A stretch of DNA of 64,000 bases from Desulforamulus ruminis DSM 2154. Lineage in GTDB: Bacteria > Bacillota > Desulfotomaculia > Desulfotomaculales > Desulfotomaculaceae. The notes below the pieces were generated by a model that saw only the letters and a program-made list of their open reading frames with translations, was not told the origin of the DNA and searched no databases. The position numbers and the translations under genes were made by a program. Positions 40,795 to 51,718 of the stretch are shown here, piece by piece. The number at the start of each line of letters is the position of its first letter. The stretch's first letter is position 1. The stretch lies in assembly GCF_000215085.1 (NCBI RefSeq), contig NC_015589.1, positions 2,864,120 through 2,928,119 on the forward strand. The letters run 5' to 3'.

Positions 40795-42087
40795 TTATAC
40801 CATATCCTTTTCCCTTAAATCAAATACACGCTTGCTCTTCTTTTCCGACCGGGGCAGCATTCCGCAGGCCACCACTTCCACCTCGGCCTGAATGCCGATG
40901 CGGGTTTTAATATTGCGGCGGCACTCGTCGGCCAAAGTCTTGTAATCGGCGCCCTCCCGGGCTTCCACTTTGATGGCGATGCGATCCTTTCCTTCCTGGC
41001 GGGTCAGCAGAATTTGGTATTCACTGCTGGCCCCCGGGGACAGGCGTAAAACGTGATCAATCTGACCCGGATAAATATTCACGCCTTTTACCTTGACCAT
41101 GTCGTCCGTCCGGCCCAGAACCCGGTCCATCATGGGGAAGGGAGAGCCGCAGGAGCAGGCTTCCAAACGGAGGCGGGTAATGTCGTGGGTGCGATAGCGC
41201 AGCAGGGGCATCCCTTCTTTGGTCAAAGTGGTGATCACCAGCTCGCCCTGTTGGCCCGGCGGCAAGGGTCTCCCGGTCACAGGATCAATAATCTCAAACA
41301 AAAGATGATCGGACCAGAAGTGCAGCCCCTGGTGGCAGGAACAGTCAATGCCGATGCCCGGCCCGTAAATCTCCGTCAGGCCGTAAATATCAAAGGTTTC
41401 AATGCCCAGCATTTCGGTAATGCGCGCGCGCATTTTATCTCCCCAGCGCTCGCTGCCAAATACGCCCCGCCGCAGGGCAACTTTATCCTTCAGACCCCGC
41501 TTCTGAATCTCTTCCGCCAGCAGCAGCCCGTAGGAAGAAGTTCCGATCAACACGGTGGTCTGCAGATCTTCCATTAACTCCAATTGCTTGTCGGTGTTGC
41601 CCGGCCCCGTAGGAATGGTCATGGCGCCCAAGCGCTCCACCCCGGCCTGAAATCCGATGCCGGCGGTCCACAGGCCGTAACCCGGCGTAACCTGAACCCG
41701 GTCCCGGGGGGTAACTCCGGCCATTTTGAGGCACCGGGCCATCATCTCCGCCCAGGTTTCCACATCGGTGGAAGTATAAGGTACAATCACGGGTTTCCCG
41801 GTGGTTCCCGATGAGGAGTGAATGCGCACCACTTCTTCCTCCGGAACAGCCTGCAGTCCCAAAGGATAGCCCGTACGCAGCTCTCCCTTGGTGGTAAACG
41901 GCACGCCGGCCAAATCCTCCACCCTTTGAATATCTCCCGGCTGAATACCGGCCTCATCCAGTTTCCGCCGGTAAAAAGGCGACCGGGCATAGATCCGTTG
42001 GATCATTCTTTGCAGTTTCCCGGACTGGACCTCAAAAAGGAGATCATAGTCAAAGTTTTTGGCTGATGGTTTTAAAAGCACCGACAT
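40795..42087 (-). CDS. paaK: Phenylacetate-CoA ligase-type adenylate-forming enzyme
   Basis: A 430-residue ligase that activates aryl-acetates to CoA esters. The phosphate-binding motif SSSGTTGKPVIVPYTSTD and YGLTEIYGPGIGIDC are clear, and the C-terminal domain contains GRTDDMVKVKGVNIYPGQID. Beside iorAB it fits aryl-acetate formed by indolepyruvate:ferredoxin oxidoreductase or the reverse, conserving energy as aryl-CoA/ATP. It follows iorB with a two-base gap and ends the operon. Confidence 0.92.
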   Translation of the reverse strand: MSVLLKPSAKNFDYDLLFEVQSGKLQRMIQRIYARSPFYRRKLDEAGIQPGDIQRVEDLAGVPFTTKGELRTGYPLGLQAVPEEEVVRIHSSSGTTGKPVIVPYTSTDVETWAEMMARCLKMAGVTPRDRVQVTPGYGLWTAGIGFQAGVERLGAMTIPTGPGNTDKQLELMEDLQTTVLIGTSSYGLLLAEEIQKRGLKDKVALRRGVFGSERWGDKMRARITEMLGIETFDIYGLTEIYGPGIGIDCSCHQGLHFWSDHLLFEIIDPVTGRPLPPGQQGELVITTLTKEGMPLLRYRTHDITRLRLEACSCGSPFPMMDRVLGRTDDMVKVKGVNIYPGQIDHVLRLSPGASSEYQILLTRQEGKDRIAIKVEAREGADYKTLADECRRNIKTRIGIQAEVEVVACGMLPRSEKKSKRVFDLREKDMV

Positions 42088-42089
42088 GC

Positions 42090-42680
42090 TTAAGCACCTC
42101 CCACTGCTTGTTGTCCTAATTCAAAAGCCTTCAGATTTATCTCCCGCAGCCGGGTGGGAATCAGTTCCATGGCCACCTGCTTCAGATGGGCGGCTGCAAA
42201 GGGCAGTACATTCAGCCCGGCCAAGGCTCCCAGCATCACCATATTGGTGGCCTTGGGGGTTCCTGCCTGCCGGGCCAGCGCCGTAGCATGGACCGGCTTT
42301 AACCCGTCGGCCTGTTCCTGCAAATAGGATATCAGTTGGTCCGGGTCATATTGAGACAATCCGAGGCTTACCGATACGGGAAAAATGGTTTCGGTGTTGA
42401 CCACCACCACGCCCCCTTGCTTTAACTTGGGCAACCCCCGCACAGTCTCCGCCAGTTCAAAACCCAGCAGTATGTCCGCCTGGCCGTTGGGAATCAAGGC
42501 TCCGAAGGAGCCGCTGCCCATGCGCACCTGGCTCATCACTACGCCCTCCCGCTGGGCCATGCCGATGGCTTCGGAAGTTCGCACCGACAGACCGTAATCC
42601 ATGGCCGCCCGGGCCAGTATACGGGAGGCCAGAACATTTCCTTGGCCGCCCACCCCGGTAATGACAATGTCCAACCTCAT
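42090..42680 (-). CDS. iorB: Indolepyruvate:ferredoxin oxidoreductase, beta subunit
   Basis: A 196-residue POR-gamma-type subunit: IVITGVGGQGNVLASRILARAA and the motif EAIGMAQREGVVMSQVRMG. It partners IorA in oxidising aryl-pyruvates (from Trp, Phe, Tyr) to aryl-acetyl-CoA with ferredoxin reduction. It overlaps iorA by four bases. Confidence 0.94.
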   Translation of the reverse strand: MRLDIVITGVGGQGNVLASRILARAAMDYGLSVRTSEAIGMAQREGVVMSQVRMGSGSFGALIPNGQADILLGFELAETVRGLPKLKQGGVVVVNTETIFPVSVSLGLSQYDPDQLISYLQEQADGLKPVHATALARQAGTPKATNMVMLGALAGLNVLPFAAAHLKQVAMELIPTRLREINLKAFELGQQAVGGA

Positions 42681-44479
42681 TGAACTTCCCCTCCCTCAAC
42701 AATGGCTTCCGCCGGGCAGATTTGTTTACATAAATCACAGCCGGTACAGGCGGTGCCGATCACCGGCCCCTCCTCTCCCTTGAACAGGGCGGGACAGCCC
42801 AGCTCCTCTAAACAAACCCCGCAGTCCAAGCACTTTTCCCGGTCAATCCTTCTGGATGGGTTTTGCCCTTTTACCAGAGCAATGCATTCCCTTCTCATCA
42901 CCAGTACCGACACACCCTGGAATTCCAGGGCCTCCCGGGCAGCCTGCACAGCCTCGTCATAGGCCAGCGGGTCCACCACTTGAACCAGGCCGGCGCCACA
43001 GGCTTCAGCCAATCGGGCAATCTCCAGGGGCTCTACCCTTTGCCCGGTGGCATTGCGGGTTAATCCCGGATGGCTCTGGTGCCCGGTCATGGCTGTGGTG
43101 CGGTTATCCAAAACCACCACCGTCAGCCTGGCCCCGTTATGCACGGCATTGATTAAGCCGGGAATACCGGTGTGGAAAAAGGTAGAATCTCCCAAAAAGG
43201 CCACCACCCTGCGTTCGGGCTCCACCAGTTGCAGCCCGGTGCCAAGGGTGATGCTGGCGCCCATGCATAAACAGGTATCCACCGCATTCAGAGGAGCCAT
43301 GTTGCCCAGAGTATAACAGCCGATATCCCCGGTAAAAACAGCATCCGTTCCCCTGGCCGCCTGCTTGAAAGCGTAAAAGGAAGCCCGGTGAGGACACCCT
43401 GCGCATAATACCGGCGGACGTACCGGCAGCGGCGGCAATTTTTTCTCCTCTTTACAAGGCAGGTCTATTTCAAAAAAGGCGGCCACCGCTCTTTTTACCT
43501 TATCAACATCCAGTTCACCCTCCCGGGGCACCAGACGGTTGTATTTCCCCCGGAGCACCAGAGGACGGCGGTGCTGCCAGATCATTTTGATCAGTTGATC
43601 TTCCAACACCGGTTCCTGTTCTTCAATTACCAGCACCCGGTCAATGCCATCCAAAAACTGCAGGGTCGAGTGAACCGGCAGCGGGTACGAGGTCCCGATC
43701 TTTAAAACAGGAATATCCAACTGCATTTGCTCAATGACTTCCAAAACATAATTATAAGCCACCCCGGTGGTCACAATACCGCTTCTTCTGGAACCGGGGT
43801 GAATTTTATTAAAGGGACTGTTTTCAAAGATTTTCTGCATTTCATCCTGCTGCTGATTCAGCCAGCGATGTCTCTTGATGGCCAGGCTGGGAAAAATAAC
43901 CCAGCCCGGGTCCTTTTGAAAACCACCGGGTTTCGGCCGCTCCATTTGCTTTTCATCCACTTCCACGTCCTGACATACATGACAGGTCCGGGTGGTAGGA
44001 CGAATAATCACCGGCAGTCCCAGAGACTCGGAAATATCAAAAGCAGCCCGGGTCATGTCCTTAGCCTCCTGGGGCGTGGAGGGATCCAGCACCGGCAGTT
44101 TGGCAAACTGGGCAAACTTCCGGGTATCCTGTTCATTTTGAGAACTATGGGGCCCCGGGTCATCCGCCACAACCAGCACCAGTCCCCCTTTGACCCCGAT
44201 ATAAGCCAGGGTCATCAGGGGATCCGCCGCCACATTAAGACCCACCTGCTTCATGGTCACCATGGCCCGGGCGCCGGCATAAGCGGCTCCCGCCGCCACT
44301 TCCAGGGCCACTTTCTCGTTCACCGACCACTCCGCATGAAAACCACGCTCCCCGGCCATGCCTGCCAGGGTGGTAAAGATCTCCGAGGAAGGGGTTCCGG
44401 GATACCCGGTGACCACCTGAACGCCTGCTTCCAGCGCACCGTAGGCAATGGCTTCGTTGCCCATTAATAACTTTTTCAT
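42677..44479 (-). CDS. iorA: Indolepyruvate:ferredoxin oxidoreductase, alpha subunit
   Basis: A 600-residue thiamine diphosphate enzyme. The N-terminal pyrimidine domain (MKKLLMGNEAIAYGALEAGV and TGYPGTPSSEI), the TPP domain with GDIGCYTLGNMAPLNAVDTC and GDSTFFHTGIPGL, and two C-terminal [4Fe-4S] motifs (CLDCGVCLEELGCP; CTGCDLCKQICPAEAI) are all present. The start at 44479 follows ACGGAGGG; a longer frame lacks a ribosome site. It feeds reduced ferredoxin into anaerobic metabolism. Its gene is followed by iorB and paaK and preceded by the ECF transporter. Confidence 0.95.
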   Translation of the reverse strand: MKKLLMGNEAIAYGALEAGVQVVTGYPGTPSSEIFTTLAGMAGERGFHAEWSVNEKVALEVAAGAAYAGARAMVTMKQVGLNVAADPLMTLAYIGVKGGLVLVVADDPGPHSSQNEQDTRKFAQFAKLPVLDPSTPQEAKDMTRAAFDISESLGLPVIIRPTTRTCHVCQDVEVDEKQMERPKPGGFQKDPGWVIFPSLAIKRHRWLNQQQDEMQKIFENSPFNKIHPGSRRSGIVTTGVAYNYVLEVIEQMQLDIPVLKIGTSYPLPVHSTLQFLDGIDRVLVIEEQEPVLEDQLIKMIWQHRRPLVLRGKYNRLVPREGELDVDKVKRAVAAFFEIDLPCKEEKKLPPLPVRPPVLCAGCPHRASFYAFKQAARGTDAVFTGDIGCYTLGNMAPLNAVDTCLCMGASITLGTGLQLVEPERRVVAFLGDSTFFHTGIPGLINAVHNGARLTVVVLDNRTTAMTGHQSHPGLTRNATGQRVEPLEIARLAEACGAGLVQVVDPLAYDEAVQAAREALEFQGVSVLVMRRECIALVKGQNPSRRIDREKCLDCGVCLEELGCPALFKGEEGPVIGTACTGCDLCKQICPAEAIVEGGEVQ

Positions 44480-44493
44480 TGAAATACCCTCCG

Positions 44494-45288
44494 TTAATAA
44501 CCGGCCGCCCCAAAGCCTTGCAGCCTGAATAAGATTGCCACAACAATCATAACGGCAATGAGAAACATCACCAGCCAATCTATTCTCTCAATACTGGGTT
44601 CCTTTAAGTACGTGCGGACCCCGCTGCCGTAACCTCTTGTTTCCATGGCAATGGCCAGCCGTTCAGCCTTTTTAAGGGAAATTAACACCAGGGGCAGAGC
44701 CACAGCCACATAAGCTTTAAGTTTGCGCAGGGGGTTGCCGGTGTCAATGGGCAATCCCCGGACCTGTTGAGCATAACTGACCTGAACCGCTTCCATCATA
44801 AAGGTGGGAACAAAGCGTAAAGCGGTCATAAACATAAAGACATAATCATAAGGCAGCTTTAATTTTTCCGTAAGGACCAGAATAATGTCCTTAAACTGGG
44901 TGGTGGCCAGAAAGACCAGAAAACTTAAAACCACCGTCATCATTCTCAGAGCCATAGCCACTCCCAGCAGCACCGCTTCCCGGCTCACCGGCAGATGCTG
45001 GCCGGGTAGCAGATAAAACAGTACGTCCTGTCCGTGAAAAAAGAGGACCTGCAGCAATACTAAAACACCGCCAAAAAGGGTCAAGCCTTTAAGGACAAAA
45101 GCCAGATCTTTTAAAACTTTGCCTGCGGCAGCCACCATGACCACCGAAGATAAAAGAGCCAGCAAATAATACACATGGTTAAAAGTCAGAGCCAAAACCA
45201 TTACCCCCAGTGCCCAGGCCAGCTTGCTCAGAGGGTGCAATTGGTGCACCACGGACTCCCGGTATACATATTCAACCACTCGGGCCAT
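44494..45288 (-). CDS. ecfT: ECF transporter transmembrane subunit EcfT
   Basis: A 264-residue membrane protein with five or six segments. The ATPase-coupling motif AIAMETRGYGSGVRT (ARG type) lies before the last segments, and SYAQQVRGLPID is the first coupling helix. It joins two ATPases with the substrate-binding S component. The gene directly follows the second ATPase gene (contiguous). The module is dedicated: the S-component gene heads the operon. Confidence 0.92.
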   Translation of the reverse strand: MARVVEYVYRESVVHQLHPLSKLAWALGVMVLALTFNHVYYLLALLSSVVMVAAAGKVLKDLAFVLKGLTLFGGVLVLLQVLFFHGQDVLFYLLPGQHLPVSREAVLLGVAMALRMMTVVLSFLVFLATTQFKDIILVLTEKLKLPYDYVFMFMTALRFVPTFMMEAVQVSYAQQVRGLPIDTGNPLRKLKAYVAVALPLVLISLKKAERLAIAMETRGYGSGVRTYLKEPSIERIDWLVMFLIAVMIVVAILFRLQGFGAAGY

Positions 45289-46134
45289 TTAATTTCCCTC
45301 CAGTACACGCATGAGATAGTTGTACATCTCGTCTACCGTTAAGATGACTTCGGAACTTGGGGTAATGTTTAAGCTGTTCAAAGCAGCCAACCGGCTGGCC
45401 AGCATCATAATCTGGGGAGGCTCCAGCAAGGTTTGGGCAAGCTGCTCCTGCCGGCTTAAAACCTCCCGGGTGGGACCCTCCAGCAAAATCCTGCCCTGGC
45501 AAAGGACAACCACCCTTTGGGCAAATCCCGCCACCAGGGACATGTCGTGGGTAATAAACAAAATGGTGTGACCGGCCCGGTTCAAGTTCCGGATCAGCTC
45601 CATGATTTGCAGCCGCTCCTGATAATCCTGACCGGTGGTGGGTTCATCCAATACGATGATCGGGGTTTGCAGCGCCAGTACCGAGGCCAGGGCCACCCTC
45701 TGACGCTGCCCCCGGCTGAGACTTTGAGGGTACGCTTCGGCCTGCTGCTCCAGTCCCACTTCCCGGAGAGCCGCCAACACCCGCCGGTTTATCTCACTTT
45801 CCGGCAGGCCCTGGTTGACCAACCCAAAGGCCACTTCTTTTTTTACCGTATCATTAAAGATCTGATGATCGGGGTTTTGAAAAACAAAACCAACCTCCCG
45901 GGATAATTCGGAAATCCGGGCGGTAGATACATCCCTGCCTGCAACGGTTACCTGCCCTGTCTGAGGACGCAGCAGGCCGATTAAATGTTTTACCAGGGTG
46001 GTTTTGCCGGCGCCGTTTTGACCCACCAGCGCCACCATTTCTCCCTGACGGATGTTCAGGTTAATCCCCTTTAAAGCCGGCTGTCCGCTTTCATAACTGT
46101 GAGCAAGCTCCTTGATATCGATCACCGTTGTCAC
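45289..46134 (-). CDS. ecfA2: ECF transporter ATP-binding subunit EcfA2
   Basis: A 281-residue ABC ATPase: Walker A VGQNGAGKTTL, signature LSRGQRQRVALAS, Walker B PIIVLDEPTTG, switch ITHDMSL. It starts at GTG 46134, behind GGAGGGTTGCCTT, and overlaps the first ATPase by four bases (GTGA). A longer frame upstream lies inside the first ATPase gene. Confidence 0.92.
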   Translation of the reverse strand: MTTVIDIKELAHSYESGQPALKGINLNIRQGEMVALVGQNGAGKTTLVKHLIGLLRPQTGQVTVAGRDVSTARISELSREVGFVFQNPDHQIFNDTVKKEVAFGLVNQGLPESEINRRVLAALREVGLEQQAEAYPQSLSRGQRQRVALASVLALQTPIIVLDEPTTGQDYQERLQIMELIRNLNRAGHTILFITHDMSLVAGFAQRVVVLCQGRILLEGPTREVLSRQEQLAQTLLEPPQIMMLASRLAALNSLNITPSSEVILTVDEMYNYLMRVLEGN

Positions 46135-46991
46135 AAGGCAACCCTCCGTTGTTGAGCCAGTAAATCGCAGCAATACTGAAGACCTTCCTCCAACTGAACG
46201 GGTAATTCCCGGGAATGGGCCTTTAATCTCAGGGCCAGCTCCGTAACCTCCGGCAAGCCTACCCCCAGATGCTTCATTTCCTGCCTGCCAAAAACCTCCC
46301 TGGGCTTTCCGCTTAGAACCATTTCCCCTTCTTTTAACAACACCAGCTCTTCACAATAAGCAGCCAGCAGCTCAATTTTCTGTTCCGCCACCACCACCGT
46401 AATGCCATGCTGCAGGTTTAAATGCTTCAATACCTGAAATACTTCCTTGCTGCCCATGGGGTCCAGTTCCGAAGTAGGTTCATCCAGCACCAGCACTTCG
46501 GGCCGCAGGGCCAGGGCCGCGGCAATGGCCAGACGCTGTTTCTGTCCGCCGGATAAGGAGCGGGTGGAACGGGTGCGTAAATGAGCAATTCCCGTCTGAT
46601 TCAAGGCGGTGTGAATGCGCTGTTCCATTTCCTCCGGAGCCACGCCCAAATTTTCCAATCCGAAGGCCAGCTCCTGCTCCACATCCAGGCACACAATCTG
46701 GGCTTCCGGATCGTCAAAGACCGTCCCCACCAGCCGGGAAATTTGAGCGGTGTTCAGGGTCCGGGTATCCAGCCCCTGCAACTGCACGTCGCCGGTTATG
46801 GTCCCTCCCTCGAAATGGGGGATGATGCCGTTGACGGATTTAATAAAAGTGGTTTTTCCTGCCCCGGTGGGACCGGTTAAACCCACAAAGGTTCCCTTTT
46901 TAATTTTTAGATTAATATTTTTCAAGGCCTTTCCCCCGGACCCGGGGTAGCCGTAACTATAACTGCGAAACTCCAAAGCGTATTCTGTCAT
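46131..46991 (-). CDS. ecfA1: ECF transporter ATP-binding subunit EcfA1
   Basis: A 286-residue ABC ATPase with Walker A GPTGAGKTTF, signature LSGGQKQRLAIA, Walker B EVLVLDEPTSELD. It is the first ATPase of the ECF pair and follows the S-component gene with 26 bases between. Both ATPases have the long C-terminal region typical of ECF rather than ABC importers. Confidence 0.92.
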   Translation of the reverse strand: MTEYALEFRSYSYGYPGSGGKALKNINLKIKKGTFVGLTGPTGAGKTTFIKSVNGIIPHFEGGTITGDVQLQGLDTRTLNTAQISRLVGTVFDDPEAQIVCLDVEQELAFGLENLGVAPEEMEQRIHTALNQTGIAHLRTRSTRSLSGGQKQRLAIAAALALRPEVLVLDEPTSELDPMGSKEVFQVLKHLNLQHGITVVVAEQKIELLAAYCEELVLLKEGEMVLSGKPREVFGRQEMKHLGVGLPEVTELALRLKAHSRELPVQLEEGLQYCCDLLAQQRRVAL

Positions 46992-47017: not shown

Positions 47018-47569
47018 TTAGCGGTAAAGAAATTTTTTCACCGGAGCGTAGAGGGCCTGAGCAATAATCATGTTAATCAGGGACACCGGAATCACTACAC
47101 CCACAAAGGCTGCCTGCATGGCCGCCGCCGGCAGGTGCAGGGCATACTGAAAATTTAAGACCACAAACACGCCGCCGCTTACCAGGGTTCCCAGTAGGGT
47201 CGCCAGGGCCGGCTTAAAGGAATAATTTTTTATGGAAAGCTCCGGCAGATAGCAGGCCAGGAAAGCACAGACCAGAGCGCCGGAGGGCTCACTGAAAAGG
47301 TTCAGATAAGGAATAGGGGATTTAGAAAAGATCATACTGACCGCCCCGGCTACAATACCAATTCCCAGAGCGCCGCCGATTTTCGGCTTAATTAATAAAA
47401 TGGCTAAGCAATACATGGCAATAATAAAGTTTGGGGTAATTCCCAGGATATTGGGAGCAAACATCCGCAGCACCGCCCCAATGGCAATTAAAAAGGCGAC
47501 TACGGCAATTTCCTTGGTACGGTTCATTTTGGTCTCTACAACTCTTTGACCAACCACTTCATGACTCAT
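47018..47569 (-). CDS. ECF S component, tryptophan transporter TrpP-like
   Basis: A 183-residue membrane protein with five or six hydrophobic segments. It resembles TrpP of Bacillus (AVVAFLIAIGAVLRMFAPNI, then KPKIGGALGIGIVAGAVSMI and FSEPSGALVCAFLACY). The start is set at the ATG eight bases after GGAG. The upstream leader has eleven GAG/UAG triplets and a terminator, so TRAP attenuation by tryptophan is likely. It delivers substrate to EcfT/A1/A2 encoded next, and the same transcript may continue to iorAB and paaK. Confidence 0.85.
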   Translation of the reverse strand: MSHEVVGQRVVETKMNRTKEIAVVAFLIAIGAVLRMFAPNILGITPNFIIAMYCLAILLIKPKIGGALGIGIVAGAVSMIFSKSPIPYLNLFSEPSGALVCAFLACYLPELSIKNYSFKPALATLLGTLVSGGVFVVLNFQYALHLPAAAMQAAFVGVVIPVSLINMIIAQALYAPVKKFLYR

Positions 47570-47593
47570 GCTCATCTCTCCTCATCTTAAATT

Positions 47594-47620
47594 AAAAAAC
47601 CAGGCTAAGTAAGCCTGGTT
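47594..47620 (-). terminator. Attenuator terminator of the TrpP/ECF operon
   Basis: AACCAGGCT and AGCCTGGTT arms (nine pairs, five-base loop) followed by TTTTTT on the minus strand, ahead of the S-component gene. An alternative helix can pair upstream GAGTTTAGTTGAG with GTTAACTTTAACC, which contains the terminator's 5' edge. Confidence 0.85.
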
Positions 47621-47642
47621 AAAGTTAACGATATGAACAACG

Positions 47643-47723
47643 CTCCATCGCTCTCAACTAAACTCAGCTCATCTCCGCTCAACCTCCTCTATGAAATTGT
47701 CTTTTCTTGACTCATCTCAGCTA
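47643..47723 (-). promoter_or_regulatory. TRAP (MtrB) binding site, eleven GAG/UAG triplets
   Basis: On the minus transcript, triplets occur at (plus coordinates of the complement start) 47721, 47716, 47711, then 47689, 47684, 47678, 47673, 47668, 47663, 47658 and 47653: UAG, GAG, GAG, gap of 19 bases, UAG, GAG x5, UAG, GAG. Spacers are 2 bases (once 3). A further GAG lies at 47643, and two AAG keep the phase inside the gap. TRAP wraps (G/U)AG repeats with this spacing and eleven is the usual count. It overlaps the antiterminator strand. Confidence 0.85.
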
Positions 47724-47754
47724 CTTACAGGAACCCTATGGTTGCCATGGTTAG

Positions 47755-47783
47755 AGTTTATCATACTCCGCCGGACCTGTCAC
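47755..47783 (-). promoter_or_regulatory. Candidate promoter of the TrpP/ECF operon
   Basis: GTGACA (47783-47778), 17 bases, TAAACT (47760-47755). It fits a start just ahead of the first triplet at 47723. The -10 matches only four of six. Confidence 0.4.
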
Positions 47784-47800
47784 CCATTTTTTCAGCAAAA

Positions 47801-48394
47801 CTAACTGAGGGTAACCACTTTGCCGTCGCCGGTCAGATGATCCAGAATCTCCAGCATATTGGTGACCCGCCCCACAGCCAGTTGATCCTTCAATTGGTAG
47901 TAGTCCAGGCAGGTGCCGCAGGCCACCACTTCCGTGCCCCGCTCCCGGAGTTTGCTGATTTGTTCCAGTACCCTGGACTGTTGAATCACCAAACGCACGC
48001 CGGAATTCACCAGCATCAGCATCCGGGGAGCCGATTTTTCCAGCAGACTGTTAAAAAAGCTGACCATTAGCGTCTCACCTAAATCTTCGGCTCCGCTGCC
48101 AAAGGTATTACTGGCAATGAGATACACCATGGGTCCGGTTTCATTCCGGGCTGCCGGGGCTGTCTGAGGCAGTGTGCCTTCTCCCTTGGTTACGGTAATA
48201 TAAAATTCCCCGTTCTTTTCTTCCACCTGCACTCTACAGCCGGCATTTTCCGCAAAACGGGTTACATTCTCCCGGGCCACCGGATTATCTACCAGCACCA
48301 CCAGGCTTCCCTGCTCCAGCTCCTCCAGCGCCCGCTTGGTGTTGATCACCGGCTGGGGGCAGGCCAAGCCGCGGCAATTTATTTCTTTCAACAT
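47801..48394 (-). CDS. yedF: Selenium metabolism protein YedF
   Basis: A 197-residue protein with an N-terminal TusA-like domain (EINCRGLACPQPVINTKRAL, with CPQP) and a C-terminal DsrE-like domain (about 95-197: MVYLIASNTFGSGAEDLGET). It is found only in organisms with selenium use. It follows selD with two bases between, which supports a shared role in selenium supply. Confidence 0.92.
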   Translation of the reverse strand: MLKEINCRGLACPQPVINTKRALEELEQGSLVVLVDNPVARENVTRFAENAGCRVQVEEKNGEFYITVTKGEGTLPQTAPAARNETGPMVYLIASNTFGSGAEDLGETLMVSFFNSLLEKSAPRMLMLVNSGVRLVIQQSRVLEQISKLRERGTEVVACGTCLDYYQLKDQLAVGRVTNMLEILDHLTGDGKVVTLS

Positions 48395-48396
48395 AC

Positions 48397-49443
48397 TTAT
48401 TGGCTCCTTTCCACACGAATCAAATATTCGCCCGGTTCTTCCAATTGTCCCACCACCCGGGCTTCGGTTACGCCGGCCCCGTGCAGCCGTTCAATCAAAA
48501 GAGCCGCCTTTTCCGGAGCAACGGCCATCAACAGCCCGCCGGAGGTCTGGGGATCAAAAAGAATATCCATTTCTTCCCGGCAGACCCCTTCTCCCGTTTC
48601 CACCCCGTCTCCTAAGTGGCTGCGGTTGTTATAGGCTCCGGCGGGAATGATACCCATGCGGGCCAGTTCCCCGGCTCCGGACAATACCGGCACCTCGGCG
48701 GCATAAACCCTCAGGCTTAGGCCGCTGGCCTTCAGCATTTCCGCCGCATGTCCCAGAAAACCAAAACCGGTAATGTCGGTGCAGGCTGAAACGCCCGTTT
48801 CAACCATCACCTCGGCGGCCGCTTTATTTAAAGTTGCCATGGTCTGCAGGGCCCTTGCCATATCCCCTTTTTCCACCAACCCCGCCTTTATTCCGGTATT
48901 GAGGATTCCGGTGCCCAGGGGTTTGGTGAGAATAACCCGGTCCCCGGCTCTGGCCGTGGCGTTGCTGTAAATCCTGCCGGGATGCACCACACCGGTCACC
49001 GCCAGCCCATACTTGGGTTCATCGTCCTGCACACTGTGGCCGCCGGCGATCACCGCCCCGGCTTCCAAAACTTTATCGGCTCCGCCCTTGAGGATTTCCG
49101 CTAAAATACTGGACGGCAGGCAAGAGGGAAAACAAACAATATTTAATGCCAGCAGCGGGGTGCCGCCCATGGCATAGACATCACTGAGGGCATTGGCTGC
49201 TGCGATCTGTCCGAAAAGATAAGGGTCGTCCACCATAGGCGTGAAAAAATCCACGGTTTGGATGGTGGCCAACTGGCTGTTTAAGCGGTACACTGCAGCA
49301 TCGTCAGAGGTTTCCAGTCCAACCAACAGGTTGGGGTCGGTCCCTCTGGGTACTTGCTGAAGAACTTCTGAAAGGACTCCCGGTCCTACTTTAGCGGCTC
49401 ACCCTGCCGCCTTGGTCATGGTTGTCAACCGGTATTCCGTCAA
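48397..49443 (-). CDS. selD: Selenide, water dikinase with in-frame selenocysteine
   Basis: A 348-residue enzyme that makes selenophosphate from selenide and ATP. Residue 15 is UGA (49401-49399) read as selenocysteine in TKAAG-U-AAKVGPGVL, replacing the usual catalytic Cys. ATP-binding and Mg2+ residues follow (SDDAAVYRL, TVDFFTPMVDDPY, GGHSVQDDEPKYGLAV). The start TTG 49443 lies behind GGAGGTGA. Ordinary gene finding would begin it at 49326 and miss the active site. A bSECIS-like hairpin follows the UGA. Confidence 0.92.
49363..49398 (-). promoter_or_regulatory. bSECIS-like hairpin of selD
   Basis: Immediately after the UGA, AGGAC and GTCCT enclose a CGGGA loop about 15 bases downstream, the spacing and loop G of bacterial SECIS elements that bind SelB. 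Flanking bases (AAAGT, TTTC) can extend the stem. Confidence 0.6.
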
Positions 49444-50869: not shown

Positions 50870-51718
50870 ATGAAAAGCAAAATTTTATCAGTAAAAAAAC
50901 AAGTGGGTACTTTTGTTCTTTGCGGAGCCCTTGTTACCGCCATCGGTGTGGGAACGGCCCTGGCAGCAACCCCTGCAACTTGTCTGCAGGTTAAAATGAA
51001 AGACGGCGTCAAAACTTACTCTACCGACGGCGGTAAGACCTGGACCGAAAAGGTTCCCGACGGCATGACGATCAGCGAAAAAGACGGCCAATTCACCCTC
51101 TTGAATGGTACTCCACTAAAAGATGCTGATGGATGGGGCATACTGATCAAAGTGAAAGACGGTGTTAGAACTTTCTCCACCGACGGCGGTGAAACCTGGA
51201 CCGAAAAAGCTCCCGACGGCGTAACCATCAACGAAAAAGACGGTAAATTCACCATTTTGAATGGTACTCCACTAAAAGATGCTGATGGACGGGACATACT
51301 GGTTAAAATGAAAGACGGTGTCAGAACTTTCTCCACCGACGGTGGTGAGACCTGGACCGAAAAAGCTCCCGACGGCGTAACCATCAACGAAAAAGACGGT
51401 AAATTCACCATTTTGAATGGTACTCCACTGAAAGATGCTGATGGACAGAGCATACTGGTTAAAATGAAAGACGGCGTCAGAACTTTCTCCACCGACGGCG
51501 GTGAGACCTGGACCGAAAAGGTTCCCGACGGCATGACGATCAGCGAAAAAGACGGCCAATTCACCCTCTTGAATGGTACTCCACTGAAAGATGCTGATGG
51601 ACAGGGCATACTGGTTAAAATGAAAGACGGCGTCAGAACTTTCTCCACCGACGGTGGTGAGACCTGGACCGAAAAGGCTCCCGATGGCGCAGAGGACACT
51701 GTTACAATAGAGGACTAA
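50870..51718 (+). CDS. Secreted tandem Asp-box repeat protein
   Basis: A 282-residue exported protein. The signal peptide ends near GTALAATPA. From residue 42 a 52-residue unit (KMKDGVRTFSTDGGETWTEK then APDGVTINEKDGKFTILNGT and PLKDADGQSILV) occurs four times plus a 24-residue partial. Each unit has an Asp box (STDGGETW), the turn seen in beta-propeller hydrolases and some wall proteins. Unit DNA is 156 bases and nearly identical, so recent expansion is likely. TTGGAGG precedes the ATG. Next to a two-component system. Confidence 0.85.
   Translation: MKSKILSVKKQVGTFVLCGALVTAIGVGTALAATPATCLQVKMKDGVKTYSTDGGKTWTEKVPDGMTISEKDGQFTLLNGTPLKDADGWGILIKVKDGVRTFSTDGGETWTEKAPDGVTINEKDGKFTILNGTPLKDADGRDILVKMKDGVRTFSTDGGETWTEKAPDGVTINEKDGKFTILNGTPLKDADGQSILVKMKDGVRTFSTDGGETWTEKVPDGMTISEKDGQFTLLNGTPLKDADGQGILVKMKDGVRTFSTDGGETWTEKAPDGAEDTVTIED
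50993..51697 (+). repeat. 156-base tandem repeat, four full units and a partial
   Basis: Units start at 50993, 51149, 51305, 51461 and 51617. Units 2 and 3 are almost identical, as are 1 and 4 (PDGMTISEKDGQFTLLNG variant), which suggests duplication in alternating blocks. Confidence 0.9.

Follow-up and report, generated by a model that had tools for sequence, protein, structure and literature searches.

A putative TRAP attenuator on the operon for an ECF-type tryptophan transporter, IorAB and PaaK in Desulforamulus ruminis

Which regulator governs an operon of Desulforamulus ruminis that links a tryptophan transporter to an indolepyruvate oxidoreductase (IOR) and a CoA ligase, and in which direction would these two enzymes work? 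The operon and its leader lie on the minus strand of the stretch of DNA analysed here (the window, 64,000 nucleotides of strain DSM 2154; contig NC_015589.1, positions 2,864,120 to 2,928,119), and coordinates refer to the window and to its minus strand unless stated otherwise. What is known of TRAP (MtrB), a textbook regulator, comes largely from Bacillus and concerns above all the synthesis and transport of tryptophan. In B. subtilis, the trpEDCFBA leader is a TRAP transcription attenuator, in which eleven GAG/UAG triplets are followed by an intrinsic terminator, and TRAP represses translation at the leaders of trpP (yhaG), trpG and ycbK, where the triplets lie over the Shine-Dalgarno (SD) sequence and the start codon. 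The sequence comparisons presented below indicate, with a probability of about 0.8, that the D. ruminis leader is a TRAP target, which would shut down a tryptophan-supply operon when tryptophan is plentiful.

The first gene of the operon is trpP (47018..47575), encoding the S component of an ECF-type tryptophan transporter (PF17099, 57 bits, E-value 2.7e-15). It is followed by ecfA (46131..46991) for energy-coupling factor ATPase 1 (ABC_tran; TIGR04520/TIGR04521 below the curated cut-off), ecfA' (45289..46173, start codon uncertain) for ATPase 2 (TIGR04521 below the curated cut-off), and ecfT (44494..45288) for the transmembrane component of the CbiQ family (PF02361). The ECF set is thus complete, with the TrpP S component, two ECF ATPases and a T component. 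The alpha subunit of indolepyruvate:ferredoxin oxidoreductase, encoded by iorA (42677..44488, start near 44488), passes the cut-off of TIGR03336 (810 bits versus 650.9), and the adjoining iorB (42090..42680) for the beta subunit matches PF01558 clearly and TIGR03334 with 190 bits versus a cut-off of 205.8. The last gene, paaK (40795..42087), encodes a phenylacetate-type CoA ligase (TIGR02155, 446 bits, below the equivalog cut-off of 646). These profile matches bear out the assignments of an earlier, sequence-only reading of this DNA (ECF tryptophan transporter, IorAB and PaaK). Desulforamulus, Pelotomaculum, many Clostridia and two spirochaete contigs share the gene order trpP-ecfAA'T-iorAB-paaK.

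The genes selD and yedF lie directly upstream of the leader on the same strand. Transcription is predicted to start near position 47748 from a sigma-A type promoter (GTGACA at 47783-47778, a 17-nt spacer and TAAACT at 47760-47755), and a scan of 25 related leaders found this GTGACA-17-TAnnnT layout in nearly all of them. The leader carries an upstream cluster of three triplets (TAG-ct-GAG-at-GAG, 47711..47723), a position that holds two to five triplets in related leaders, and, after a gap of 19 nt, a main array of eight (TAG-ag-GAG-gtt-GAG-cg-GAG-at-GAG-ct-GAG-tt-TAG-tt-GAG, 47653..47691), the putative TRAP-binding array, which is backed by a chance test, a genome-wide scan and conservation. 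Spacers within the clusters measure 2-3 nt. An intrinsic terminator (47594..47620), recognised by sequence, folding and conservation, consists of a 9-bp hairpin at 47620-47598 (AACCAGGCU-UACUU-AGCCUGGUU) and a U run. The eleven GAG/UAG triplets (3 + 8) and the terminator reported before were thus confirmed on the minus strand. Between the two clusters lies the partially conserved box GACAATTTCA (47692..47701). Leaders of the Pelotomaculum type keep it as GACAATTnCATA immediately 5' of the array, and Desulforamulus leaders keep it in part. The split array had been called unusual, yet split arrays are common in related leaders of the same family; the in-phase AAG triplets described in the gap hold for two AAGs, after which the phase is lost. 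An Rfam family search of 47500-47850 returned no match up to an E-value of 5. Several Pelotomaculum-type leaders (L049, L052, L054, L058 and L059) have a strong stem-loop at the 5' end of the predicted transcript, before the array (for example GUGAAAGG-n4-CCUUUCAC), reminiscent of the one in the B. subtilis trp leader; a conserved structure of this kind was not seen in Desulforamulus leaders.

The frequency of such repeats by chance was estimated with a third-order Markov model of the minus strand of the 64-kb window, under which 0.05 positions closing a four-triplet chain are expected per 64 kb. On this strand, the chains of at least four triplets are the eight-triplet chain of the leader and one separate chain of four, located on the SD sequence of trpP. 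Runs of five perfect KAG-N2 repeats are confined to two sites of the 3.97-Mb genome, this leader and the leader of the trp operon (0 in the reversed control); the pattern is strict, requiring five perfect triplets, so weaker TRAP sites may be missed. The trp operon leader lies about 7 kb from mtrB and has the same design as the trpEDCFBA leader of B. subtilis. TRAP control does not founder on a missing regulator, since mtrB is present once in the D. ruminis genome (E-value 1.5e-40). Its product aligns closely and without gaps with solved TRAP structures and retains K37/K56/R58, T25/T30/S53 and F32, the RNA- and tryptophan-contacting residues of Bacillus TRAP. The trpP leader resembles the trpEDCFBA leader in having eleven triplets and a terminator before tryptophan-supply genes in a genome with mtrB. 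It differs in that the array is split 3 + 8 around a conserved box, a clear antiterminator is lacking, an array is added at the ribosome-binding site, and the genes that follow encode a transporter and IOR/PaaK, not tryptophan biosynthesis.

Conservation of the leader was followed through 30 trpP leaders from the order and the phylum, 29 of which carry a chain of at least four triplets. The remaining leader (L047) has three; mtrB was not found in its genome, which is 57% complete. Nearly all relatives have the terminator after the array, and the triplet spacing is kept together with it. No arrays were found at TrpP relatives from Treponema and Eggerthellaceae contigs. In G135, a genome without mtrB, the trpP ortholog (L066) has, in place of an array, a T-box motif whose specifier is of the UGG type, and a T-box motif also precedes the trpP operon in many clostridial contigs. 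In a permissive search, L093 matched RF00230 with an E-value of 3.5e-17 and 78 bits (gathering score 93) and has UGG at the specifier position, while an Rfam search at gathering level over eight loci detected no T-box. Covariance support for the T-box is limited to L093; the other loci rest on the GGTGGNACC motif, and scanning type II iorA loci simply for GGTGGNACC produced matches that were mostly due to chance. With an array in mtrB genomes and a T-box motif in G135 and the clostridial contigs, the same operon thus appears to be governed by one or the other of two unrelated tryptophan sensors, depending on the genome. The Trp T-box leaders (L066 and L093) are like the array leaders in standing before relatives of the same trpP operon and in being tuned to tryptophan shortage, but they sense uncharged tRNA-Trp, use no protein and have an unrelated RNA structure. 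TRAP control of the ECF-TrpP/IorAB/PaaK operon, the central proposal of the sequence-only reading, is strongly supported by the presence of mtrB, the conserved arrays and the array type held in common with the trp operon.

Arrays were also found where trpP is not the neighbouring gene. In eight genomes, an array with a terminator lies directly on iorA, with trpP not adjacent (L208, from the pattern search; L212, L215, L219, L221, L224 and L226, from a scan of type I iorA; and L177). The last of these belongs to G003, in which no trpP was found. In G027, trpP-ecf and iorAB form separate units, and both carry arrays (L048 and L215). In five further genomes (L184, L211, L213, L214 and L220), the array precedes genes for a DctP-DctQ-DctM organic-acid transporter followed by iorAB; the Dct families were checked for L184, and the other four were assigned by the same 3.2-3.4 kb layout. 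DctPQM in this position, ahead of iorAB-paaK, could possibly import indoleacetate or an arylpyruvate. As a control, none of 21 paralogous, type II iorA genes has at least five triplets, and one has four, at its start; the division into type I, the high-scoring group, and type II was drawn from context and HMM score. Of the type I iorA genes examined that have no adjacent trpP, about half are without an array, some of them because the contig ends there. The attenuator would seem to be tied to iorAB-paaK no less than to the transporter. TRAP arrays on the IOR/CoA ligase pair of sulfate reducers and syntrophs, with or without a transporter, would constitute a wider and partly unexpected regulon.

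When tryptophan is plentiful, tryptophan-loaded TRAP would wrap the 3 + 8 triplets and the nascent RNA would end at the terminator, while under tryptophan scarcity the array would stay free and transcription would continue through trpP-ecfAA'T-iorAB-paaK. We lean towards the view that PaaK and IOR run reductively here, converting indole-3-acetate via indoleacetyl-CoA and indolepyruvate into tryptophan, with IOR acting as a reductive carboxylase and a transamination as the last step. The operon would then serve uptake and salvage, which would explain why a tryptophan-repressed switch sits on it. Rumen anaerobes reportedly form tryptophan and phenylalanine from indoleacetate and phenylacetate, as is said to have been found by Allison and co-workers in the 1960s; if the salvage reading is true, this old observation would gain genes and a regulator and become directly testable.

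In the opposite direction, IOR would oxidise indolepyruvate to indoleacetyl-CoA and PaaK would recover ATP, so that TRAP attenuation would make tryptophan repress its own use as fuel. This is the direction for which IOR is named and best known, and the amino acid metabolism of D. ruminis (PMC3569383) speaks for it as well, but we consider it rather unlikely. It would be paradoxical for a substrate to switch off its own breakdown, clostridial contigs have a Trp T-box-type leader in front of these same genes, and TRAP control stays with iorAB-paaK where the tryptophan transporter is lost. Furthermore, D. ruminis contains a second iorAB-paaK cluster (L202, G000:C1:3787000-3798000) with its own aminotransferase and AsnC-type regulator, located beside sulfite-reductase-like genes, and the two sets may therefore be specialised. 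Ahead of the second cluster lies a T-box that scores above gathering (101 bits); its specifier seems to be GCC and not UGG. A further argument against oxidation comes from Methanococcus maripaludis, for which a passage in PMC4162585, citing Porat et al. 2004, describes the use of indolepyruvate oxidoreductase for the synthesis of aromatic amino acids from aryl acids. The likeness to salvage lies in the deployment of this enzyme for synthesis, albeit in an archaeon. To our knowledge, neither TRAP nor a linked tryptophan transporter is part of the M. maripaludis pathway. Salvage thus fits better than oxidation, in view of the gene set and its recurrent pairing with tryptophan sensors, the replacement of the tryptophan transporter by an organic-acid transporter, and the paradox of breakdown repressed by its substrate. 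The former description of the operon as uptake plus oxidation fits poorly with repression by tryptophan.

A second TRAP-type array, GAG-ga-GAG-at-GAG-cat-GAG (47565..47583), covers the SD sequence and the start codon of trpP. It is the longest chain in the window after the leader array and had been overlooked. At least three triplets over the trpP SD sequence are found in six of seven Desulforamulus genomes and in the neighbours L056, L043, L048, L051 and L060, with four triplets in D. ruminis and three to five in its relatives; the trpP start of L050 has a similar array, as judged by eye. Pelotomaculum-type and clostridial trpP leaders have an ordinary AGGAGG, and the SD sequence of the D. 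ruminis trp operon is also ordinary. As in B. subtilis trpP (yhaG), the triplets cover the SD sequence and start of a tryptophan transporter gene, but in comparison with B. subtilis trpP, trpG and ycbK, the D. ruminis site has four triplets, follows a full array with terminator, and concerns a trpP that is embedded in a dedicated ECF operon. Four triplets fall short of the count of about nine for stable binding in B. subtilis. By itself, the SD array would bind TRAP weakly and is therefore likely to be assisted by the leader array; with its 11 sites, one ring could accommodate the eight leader triplets together with three at the trpP start. Where transcription reads through, TRAP would cover the GAG repeats over the trpP SD sequence, perhaps with the same 11-site ring, and block translation. 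The second array in the Desulforamulus group thus suggests translational repression in addition to attenuation, and both modes are likely to operate in Desulforamulus and its close relatives, where a single transcript would carry both an attenuator and an array at the ribosome site. The previous claim of attenuation rather than translation is supported by the array with its terminator; it is incomplete in that the second array covers the SD sequence and start of trpP.

Conversely, TRAP could act mainly on translation, with the hairpin being merely the terminator of selD-yedF. The proximity of these genes on the same strand, the overlap of the SD array with the trpP start and the absence of a significant antiterminator would agree with this, but we regard it as improbable: the hairpin is separated from yedF by a conserved promoter, array and terminator persist without selD-yedF upstream and also directly before iorA, and Pelotomaculum-type leaders combine array and terminator with a plain SD sequence. 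A role of the hairpin as selD-yedF terminator was rejected, since relatives without selD-yedF keep the hairpin.

The helix proposed earlier between the triplet zone and the 5' edge of the terminator found no statistical support. Pairing of the array with the 5' arm of the terminator is possible (GGUU-AACC); in D. ruminis it does not exceed that of shuffled sequences (93/300), across 26 related leaders the mean of the shuffle test is 0.27 versus 0.34 for the null, and RNAalifold gave no consensus for the competing helix on two sub-alignments. The leader of the D. ruminis trp operon did better in the same test and shows an antiterminator, ranking 5/100. For the unbound trpP leader, folding predicts an advantage of about 10 kcal/mol for the terminator, and candidate explanations for the escape of free leader RNA are co-transcriptional kinetics or a ribosome site within the array.

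Such a site may be provided by an SD-like GGAGG (47687-47683) followed by AUG-AGC-UGA (47672-47664), together a possible minimal reading frame inside the array (47664..47687). Most leaders of the order have an SD-like motif followed by an ATG within the array, as compared with 0/5 trp leaders, and the succession of the GACAATTnCATA box, GGAGGTGAG and AUG-AGC-UGA likewise occurs in most leaders of the order and is absent from the five trp leaders. The in-array ribosome site may compete with TRAP, or else be a by-product of the repeat. A layered device on a reverse-running salvage operon, in which the same 11-site ring bridges attenuator and SD site over the terminator hairpin and the two-codon frame mediates competition between ribosome and TRAP, is a tentative extension that we think doubtful. 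That the GAG repeats have a role other than TRAP binding, as a purine-rich ribosome standby site, as a CsrA-like GGA-binding site or by chance, is very improbable in spite of the in-array GGAGG and AUG-AGC-UGA, given the even spacers of 2-3 nt between triplets of both kinds (GAG and UAG), the co-occurrence of arrays with mtrB, the array type common to the trp operon and the Trp T-box-type leader where mtrB is absent.

Similar arrays were encountered before other transporter genes. An amino acid permease gene (PF00324) is preceded by two tandem array-plus-terminator units and a triplet cluster at the SD sequence in three genomes (L178 in G001, L179 in G005 and L181 in G002), and by one copy of the unit in G003 (L182). 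These permease leaders of Desulforamulus relatives would represent tandem TRAP attenuators, and they repeat within the genus the triplets at the SD sequence seen at trpP; at the permease paralogs of D. ruminis, tandem arrays were looked for and not found. A triplet array with terminator also precedes a cytosine/purine-type permease gene (PF02133) in L188 (G028:C47), a possible further TRAP target, and a similar array is present at G051:C2:47324.

Two observations concern the neighbourhood of the leader. In selD (48397-49420), an in-frame TGA lies within MTKAAG-U-AAKVGPG, upstream of the TTG start called for the open reading frame, and selD thus looks like a selenoprotein gene itself. On the plus strand, positions 50870-51718 encode a secreted-looking protein of near-identical repeats (KDGVRTFSTDGGETWTEKAPDG...), which adjoins genes for a response regulator and a histidine kinase.
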